Made by a program: the position numbers and the translations under genes. 64,000 nt of DNA from Saccoglossus kowalevskii (taxonomy: Eukaryota; Hemichordata; Enteropneusta; Harrimaniidae), in assembly GCF_000003605.2 (NCBI RefSeq), contig NW_003151760.1, forward strand, positions 21,935-85,934. The letters run 5' to 3'. Within the stretch, counting starts at the first letter, position 1; each line of letters starts with the position of its first letter. Below the pieces are notes generated by a model that saw only the letters and a list, made by a program, of their open reading frames with translations, made no database searches and was not told where the DNA came from. Below are positions 4,584 through 5,753 of this stretch, in pieces.

Positions 4584-5753
4584 TCAAATTTCAGACGTTC
4601 TTGACATTCTCAAGCTGCTGCTACGCAGGCTCGTGGCTCTCGTTCGATTAAACGAGCTTTCGCGGTAGACACAGTACTTGTTCCCTTTACAGGCTGGCGA
4701 CCGACACGTACAGAATGCCCGCTTGAAAGCTTTCCTGCGTATGTTACTACCACAATTGTATAGCATGGGACTAATTGCTAAATGTATAGATAGCAACAGC
4801 GACTGGACAGTCTGCAGGCACGACATCGTGTTACGCCCTATTGATAAATCGCCCGATATTGTCTTGTACGTTTGAATTAACTGGATAGCGGCCAGTGGTG
4901 CGAAACAGAGGAAAAACAGCAAGGTTATGGCAATGCACAAAACCAACACTTTCCGCTCTTCTGAGTGCGAGCGCGAGAACCTCATGCCTTTGTTGTTGGA
5001 GTTCCCGCCCTGGTGGTCTGGTCGTTTTATCATGAATATGTTAGCGACCACTAAGCCGTAGCAGGCGACCACGATGAATACCGGTAGTACAGTGAAACAT
5101 GTAAATACGATGAACCAGGCGAAAAGCGTAGCCTCACTCGAACGATAATAAAACGTATAAAGCGCGAACAGTCCGAGGAGAATGCCTACGGTCCAGGTGA
5201 TCGCGATGAGGATGACGACACGTTTCTTGCTCCGCAAATTGAGAATATTCGCCTTGAAGGGGTGACAGACGGCAATGTAGCGTTCGATACTTATCAGTGC
5301 TATTGTCAGCAATGCCGTACACAAAAAGAGCGGTGTTATAAAAATCCACATCTTGGAAAATACATCTGACAGTAGCATCAATGTATCGAAGGATATTTTT
5401 TCCCCCAACATCAACCGATGCAGTATCAGGTAAAATATCTCCGTCAGAATCATCATAGTGTCAGCCGCCGCCAGGTTGATGAAATGGAAATTTGGAATTG
5501 TACGCATCGCTCGAACACGCACCACGACAAACACAAACGAGAGGTTGCCGACCAATGATATGGCTCCCAGAATTGTTCGACAGTAAAACAGAACTTGGAA
5601 GTCGACGTCGCAACTGTCATTCTGTGAGGTGTTCAAGTAGTCTGTCCAGTTGGTTTCGCTCGTAGTCTGTGAAACGCTTCCATCGATGAAAGCCTCCGTG
5701 AAGGGTTGGTACTCGAGTATCGACGTTGTGTTAGTCATTGCCGCTACATACAT
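4584..5753 (-). CDS. Intronless class A (rhodopsin-family) G protein-coupled receptor, peptide-receptor-like, ligand unknown
   Basis: A 389-residue plasma-membrane receptor in one exon; an in-frame stop (5769-5771) lies just upstream. Met1 has a weak start context; Met6 (ATG at 5736-5738) has G at -3 and may be the true start. N-terminus about 1-53 has N-X-S/T sites at Asn8, 35, 41 and 45. Seven hydrophobic segments follow with class A landmarks: Asn70 (TM1), LAAAD with Asp98 (TM2), ERY 157-159 then IAVCHPFKA (TM3/ICL2), Trp187 (TM4), Pro224 (TM5), CFAP 283-286 (TM6), SPMLY 328-332 (TM7). A basic helix 8 (337-347), Cys348/350/355 as possible palmitoylation sites, a Ser/Thr-rich tail and a C-terminal T-S-E-I (class I PDZ-ligand type) end it. 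Oddities: Ser133 replaces the TM3 disulfide cysteine, the second extracellular loop is about ten residues without cysteine, and NPxxY has Ser for Asn. The HPFKA loop suggests a peptide receptor, while the short loop and missing disulfide recall melanocortin/MECA receptors. The class is near certain; the subfamily is unresolved. Confidence 0.96.
   Translation of the reverse strand: MYVAAMTNTTSILEYQPFTEAFIDGSVSQTTSETNWTDYLNTSQNDSCDVDFQVLFYCRTILGAISLVGNLSFVFVVVRVRAMRTIPNFHFINLAAADTMMILTEIFYLILHRLMLGEKISFDTLMLLSDVFSKMWIFITPLFLCTALLTIALISIERYIAVCHPFKANILNLRSKKRVVILIAITWTVGILLGLFALYTFYYRSSEATLFAWFIVFTCFTVLPVFIVVACYGLVVANIFMIKRPDHQGGNSNNKGMRFSRSHSEERKVLVLCIAITLLFFLCFAPLAAIQLIQTYKTISGDLSIGRNTMSCLQTVQSLLLSIHLAISPMLYNCGSNIRRKAFKRAFCTCRSPACKGNKYCVYRESSFNRTRATSLRSSSLRMSRTSEI

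Follow-up and report, generated by a model that had tools for sequence, protein, structure and literature searches.

It is probable that, in a functional class A receptor resembling the peptide receptors, a disulfide between the N-terminus and TM7 made the canonical disulfide between TM3 and ECL2 dispensable. The receptor in question, hereafter the query, is one of a set of paralogs, within which the canonical cysteines and a second pair of cysteines can be followed from gene to gene. Few class A families live without the TM3-ECL2 disulfide, and here one gene family in one animal shows the intermediate steps. The paralog series thereby offers natural test proteins for two questions: whether the loss has to be preceded by a second tether, and which ligands an open extracellular face receives.

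The gene occupies positions 4587..5753 on the minus strand of the window, i.e., of the whole stretch of 64,000 nucleotides that was analysed, with a stop codon at 4584-4586. As judged from the open reading frame and its translation, it is an intact single-exon gene for a class A GPCR of 389 aa. Residues 69-332 correspond to the Pfam domain 7tm_1 (E 1.1e-25), and this match over the seven helices, together with D2.50, R3.50, W4.50, P6.50 and P7.50, places the protein in class A; the same domain was matched in 57/57 members of our sequence set A3. The reference positions are N70 (1.50), D98 (2.50), R158 (3.50), W187 (4.50), P224 (5.50), P286 (6.50) and P329 (7.50). Motif counting locates the ERY G-protein motif at E157-R158-Y159 (5277..5285, minus), and the sequence reads CFAP in place of CWxP, without W6.48, at C283-F284-A285-P286 (4896..4907, minus) and SPxxY in place of NPxxY at S328-P329-M-L-Y332 (4758..4772, minus). 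In the 12-member group of closest paralogs to which the query belongs (the query group), position 7.49 is Asn in 10 members and Ser in 2, the query and its sister L002. The structure was modelled by AlphaFold2 on a 57-sequence paralog alignment (pLDDT 81.7, pTM 0.80), a single-sequence model having been discarded as too poor (pLDDT 49). The model places the TM2-TM3 loop at residues 117-121 (5391..5405, minus), between helices 86-116 and 122-163. The spacing from D2.50 to 3.25 is 35, 8 more than in the ghrelin receptor as counted by eye on the alignment, and the query and L002 carry extra residues in this loop in comparison with the other 10 group members.

The receptor was the only gene recognised in the window by Pfam, applied to the 10 longest other open frames, and by the Rfam and tRNA scans made along the whole DNA. 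Those 10 frames gave no Pfam match, and the window scans yielded no Rfam match, no tRNA and no repeats as long as 60 bases or more; short tandem repeats filled 12 rows of the listing. Over positions 1-64000 the GC content is 35%, and the observed/expected CpG ratio of 0.94-1.27 per 4 kb gives no sign of CpG depletion.

According to the cited passage of PMC9287403, more than 90% of class A receptors have the C3.25-C45.50 disulfide; it is thus usual but not obligatory in the class, and the query lacks it. The initial annotation had put Ser133 (5355..5357, minus) at the site of the TM3 cysteine of most class A receptors, and this was borne out by counting as well as by alignment: Ser133 lies exactly 25 residues before R158, which makes it position 3.25, and HMMER sets it opposite the conserved cysteine of the kappa-opioid and ghrelin receptors. 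ECL2 is free of cysteines and comprises, in the AlphaFold2 model, the four residues 203-206 (Y203-R204-S205-S206; 5136..5147, minus), since TM4 ends at 202 and TM5 starts at 207; the distance from W4.50 to P5.50 is 37. Thus, the loop is indeed very short, as had been claimed, but shorter still than the ten or so residues then allotted to it. Similarly, the statement that no cysteine lies from W187 to P224 stands for ECL2 but not for the whole stretch, where a single cysteine, C219, sits inside TM5, 5 residues before P5.50.

Our survey of relatives covered one genome, the animal's own (572.1 Mb, 4830 contigs). A six-frame search with the query protein gave at least 105 matches, with 106 of the 318 first-look candidates scored, and we read 103 loci holding 104 of the genome matches. 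As an open frame of at least 290 aa was found in 95/103 loci, introns must be rare, if there are any. Searching again with the paralog L013 recovered 12/12 members of the query group at E 1e-27 or better, while its best match outside the 103 loci (on C843) had an E of 5.0e-15 and further new matches were weaker. On C4177, the query has L012, L018, L032, L037, L043 and L052 for company, and L002, L003 and L004 share contig C1800. The receptor is, therefore, one of a large expanded set of single-exon paralogs, in agreement with the earlier suggestion of a divergent lineage. No relatives outside the animal were confirmed in IMG/VR, GTDB genomes, plasmids or phages, which says little, the query being an animal gene.

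Several loci deserve separate mention. In the query group, L004 (C1800) and L005 (C2527) are matches with in-frame stop codons and are possibly young pseudogenes or assembly errors. The GPCR-like match at G000:C1465:1076992-1077408 lies inside an open frame of 7540 aa, a length out of the ordinary for one exon. Another six loci (L059, L071, L075, L077, L081 and L082; five on contig C2070, one on C129) are 7TM fragments of 218-221 aa that closely resemble one another; they have the canonical cysteines, and their frame ends between TM4 and TM5; perhaps they form a group of genes with an intron at this place.

A short ECL2 characterises 54 of the loci read: 53 with a W4.50-P5.50 distance of 36-42, plus L041 (46), added for its place among them in the tree (L001-L046, L049-L053, L056, L083 and L092). 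The same distance is 45-70 in the 41 other loci with TM7, and the remaining 8 loci stop short of this helix. Where the short-loop set has an ECL2 cysteine (38 members), it is found 13-17 residues after W4.50, as against at least 21 in the other loci, and its distance to P5.50 is nearly the same on both sides of the divide (22-28 in the set bar one; 20-27 in the others bar two). Such spacing indicates that the TM4-side half of ECL2 is the shortened part. The set also departs from the class in its activation residues: W6.48 occurs in 0/53 members with a residue at this position and P5.50 in 6/54, the query included. Both belong to the most conserved activation residues of class A.

Both canonical cysteines are present in 36 of the 54 members, both are absent in 16, and a single one, on the ECL2 side, remains in L018 and L092; the cysteine at W4.50+9 of L008, L010 and L013 lies inside TM4, and these members were scored as lacking the ECL2 cysteine. 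The two partners thus tend to go together, just as the initial annotation supposed. The losses of the whole pair include 12/12 members of the query group (the query, L002-L010, L012 and L013) and, elsewhere, L016, the pair L034/L046 and L083; in the query group, the double loss is an inherited condition common to all members. A link between the short loop and the loss of the disulfide, also proposed at that stage, had to be rejected, because the loop is equally short in the 36 members with both cysteines. Orthologues with a cysteine at both positions had been named in advance as what would refute the observation; relatives of this kind do exist among the paralogs, but it is likely that they have retained the ancestral condition and do not point to an error.

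Two further extracellular cysteines are invariant in 12/12 members of the query group, whose alignment has 29 invariant columns in all: Cys48 of the N-terminal segment (5610..5612, minus), 22 residues before N1.50, and Cys312 (4818..4820, minus), at 7.33 at the top of TM7. Across the group, the N-terminal cysteine lies 22-23 residues before N1.50, and the 7.33 column is Cys in 38 of the 54-member set. From these sequence patterns we infer a C48-C312 disulfide tying the N-terminus across ECL3/TM7. We scored the second pair as a cysteine 20-27 residues before N1.50 together with a cysteine 16-23 residues before P7.50. In the 53 short-ECL2 members with TM7, 42 had both, 11 had neither and none had a single one; being whole or absent, the pair behaves as disulfide partners would, with the reservation that the rows are related. 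It was found in 0/41 other GPCR loci. Its placement varies somewhat (in L032 and L052 the cysteines stand 26 before N1.50 and 23 before P7.50), and a second alignment method alters the calls at a single locus, L089, which is not part of the set.

Taken together, the two pairs divide the 53 members into 25 with both, 17 with the second only, 10 with the canonical only and 1, L018, with neither intact. Accordingly, the second pair is kept in 17/18 members without an intact canonical pair and in 16/16 of those that lost the canonical pair entirely, and the canonical pair is kept in 10/11 members without the second; since the members are related, these row counts are not independent observations. 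The exceptional L018 (C4177:322900-323829) is the sole short-ECL2 member without both the TM3 cysteine and the second pair, and it keeps the cysteine at the start of ECL2. Since its TM3 cysteine disappeared with no second pair in place, the tether is not an absolute prerequisite.

The history of these changes was read from a 62-row tree, with 53 rows from the set and 9 from elsewhere, for which cysteine-bearing columns were left out. The 12 rows of the query group come together with a support of 95/60 (an SH-aLRT of only 60), and with the long-branched L092 they compose a 13-row group supported at 98/90. On this topology, 4 changes account for the members with neither canonical cysteine and 5 for all those whose canonical pair is not intact; the second pair needs 3, or 2 with narrower windows that score L032 and L052 as lacking it. 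A single clade for the 16 members with neither canonical cysteine was rejected (AU p 0.0033); hence, the canonical pair was lost more than once. The exact number of losses is unsure, as L083 and L092 are on long branches and L083 stands in an unresolved fork, and the outer limit of the set is likewise unsure, as the long-ECL2 rows L048, L060 and L068 adjoin it.

Such evidence induces us to propose the following scenario. The second pair would form a disulfide tethering the N-terminus across ECL3/TM7, and with this tether in place the TM3-ECL2 disulfide would have become dispensable. Both canonical cysteines would then have been lost together in the ancestor of the 12-member query group, and once more in other parts of the family. 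The opening would no longer be lidded by ECL2 and would have the tethered N-terminus at its side, an arrangement known from some melanocortin receptors. A fuller version, in which gain of the N-terminus-TM7 bond freed the canonical disulfide to be shed several times, the lidding and bracing of the pocket moved to the N-terminus and the melanocortin receptors arrived at the same state by convergence, is one that we advance tentatively. An independent-pairs test of whether canonical loss depends on having the second pair was neutral and not significant, with 3 usable pairs; together with the exception of L018, this means that the order in which the second bond came first and the loss followed is suggested and not proved.

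The same test bears on another scenario, in which constraint was simply relaxed as the family expanded and evolved fast: ECL2 would have already been too short to need anchoring, and the second pair would be older, unrelated and not permissive. Every loss that we saw falls in short-ECL2 receptors, as this account expects, L018 did lose its TM3 cysteine without a second pair, and the pairs test gives dependence no support. Nevertheless, a short loop goes without any loss in 36/54 members, and the association described above, with the second pair kept in 17/18 members lacking an intact canonical pair and the canonical pair in 10/11 lacking the second, is not what unrelated pairs would lead one to expect, even if the rows are related. 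We therefore regard relaxed constraint as rather unlikely, though it deserves serious attention.

Whether the receptors still work is a question that their substitution patterns and signalling residues help to answer. Between the query and its nearest paralog, L002 (53% identical), pS is 0.758 and pN 0.30; although synonymous sites are saturated, these values indicate purifying selection on the query protein. We tested dN/dS in 12 paralog pairs: eight unsaturated pairs of the short-ECL2 set, three of them inside the query group, gave 0.12-0.29, one pair outside the set gave 0.47, and three query-group pairs, with query-L002 among them, were saturated at synonymous sites. With 11 paralogs in the same state and purifying selection against L002, sequencing error or decay is an unlikely origin of the double loss, and the view of the initial annotation that the loss is real is upheld. 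In the query group, R3.50, Y5.58, E6.30, P6.50 and Y7.53 are invariant, and 3.49 and 6.48 vary; across the set, R3.50 is found in 54/54 members and Y5.58 in 51/54. Given that R3.50, Y5.58, P6.50 and Y7.53 are kept, the receptor should couple to G proteins. At the outer end the picture is one of change: mean entropy is 3.18 bits at 30 usual ligand-pocket positions, 2.65 bits in the rest of the outer helix halves and 1.85 bits in the inner halves. Such variability fits diversification of ligands over a constant signalling end. As ligand, a peptide or a chemical cue from outside seems most probable.

It might be supposed, on the other hand, that selection for large or lipidic ligands opened the pocket, much as in the melanocortin receptors and the lipid receptors of the MECA group, the double loss being an adaptation that gives ligands access and the second disulfide being incidental. 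In the short-ECL2 family, no part of the helices varies as much as the pocket positions, and the cited passages describe melanocortin receptors as lacking both cysteines and as having 3-4 residues in ECL2 and a wide, open pocket in which peptides bind (PMC8563958, PMC10390531). However, variability alone is no sign of selection for ligand size. Moreover, the best-ranked solved relatives by both sequence and fold are opioid, somatostatin, ghrelin and orexin receptors, i.e., peptide receptors outside the melanocortin/MECA group. Two adenosine-receptor entries stand lower down in the fold list, and melanocortin receptors are absent among the best 60 of 241, 888 and 669 matching PDB sequences. The MECA link drawn by the initial annotation finds no support in the sequence, and we consider an opening driven by ligand size improbable. 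It is still far less credible that the receptor is a decaying gene or an annotation artefact with another true exon structure, for, despite the stop codons in the matches of L004 and L005 of the same group, the frame of the query is intact through all seven helices, pS exceeds pN against L002 as given above, C48, C312, R3.50, Y5.58 and Y7.53 are invariant in the group, and the AlphaFold2 model is confident.

Returning to the scenario of a tethered N-terminus that made the canonical bond dispensable, we would like to set the query beside known receptors. Its closest solved relatives do not share its outer face: the mu-opioid receptor keeps the canonical disulfide and a longer ECL2, whereas the query is without both. 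The somatostatin, ghrelin, orexin and other opioid receptors likewise keep the canonical disulfide and a longer loop, unlike the query. MrgD, as described in part of PMC9287403, also has no C3.25/C45.50, with an eight-residue ECL2 and Ser at 6.48, but it replaces the canonical bond with C4.64-C5.33 (C164, C175), which implies a W4.50-P5.50 distance of 42. The query has F201 and E207 at 4.64 and 5.33 and Phe at 6.48, so that the MRGPR bond is missing, and its proposed replacement, between the N-terminus and TM7, is of another kind. Closer in this respect are HCAR1-3, where the cited passage of PMC12040280 reports an N-terminus-ECL3 disulfide beside the canonical one, plus a third bond from the N-terminus; they share the first of these with our proposal for the query but keep the canonical bond. 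In a constitutively active orphan receptor, the portion of PMC12444479 cited here describes a short flexible ECL2, no class A disulfide and a prominent N-terminus that serves as a built-in agonist cap, and we liken the query to it for its short disulfide-free ECL2 and for the prominent place that the N-terminus would take.

As regards the mode of expansion, the cited passages report large, clustered rhodopsin-type expansions, for the most part of single-exon or intronless genes, in sea cucumbers and other echinoderms (PMC7042368) and among the Aplysia chemoreceptors (PMC2700072). The echinoderm OR-like receptors, or surreal-GPCRs, and the Aplysia chemoreceptors are alike in this type of expansion, compared here by description only, and those passages mention no members without the canonical pair. 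For starfish receptors, the passage cited from PMC5442662 gives conserved cysteines in TM3, TM7, ECL2 and ECL3; hence, the two-bond state may extend beyond this genome. Piece by piece, then, the short ECL2, the canonical loss, the N-terminus-ECL3 bond and the N-terminal cap are already known; a family with the series of canonical only, both, and second only was not found in searches of an open-access library.

The nearest parallel is offered by the melanocortin receptors. According to the cited part of PMC8563958, MC4R has a four-residue ECL2, D3.25, no canonical disulfide and an N-terminal disulfide, C40-C279 (7.30), and that of PMC10390531 gives MC3R and MC5R a three-residue ECL2. The latter places the N-terminus-ECL3 bond in MC1R, MC2R and MC3R, but not in MC4R or MC5R, so that the two sources, in the passages cited, disagree on MC4R; the absence of a like disulfide from MC5R means that it is not essential in melanocortin receptors either. 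The query differs in lacking D3.25 of MC4R as well as the intra-ECL3 pair, for it has a single cysteine, C312, from 7 residues after P6.50 to 12 before P7.50. With no C3.25 or C45.50 and an ECL2 of 3-4 residues in the melanocortin receptors so described, as in the query, the outer face of the query, by this analogy, would resemble that of a melanocortin receptor.
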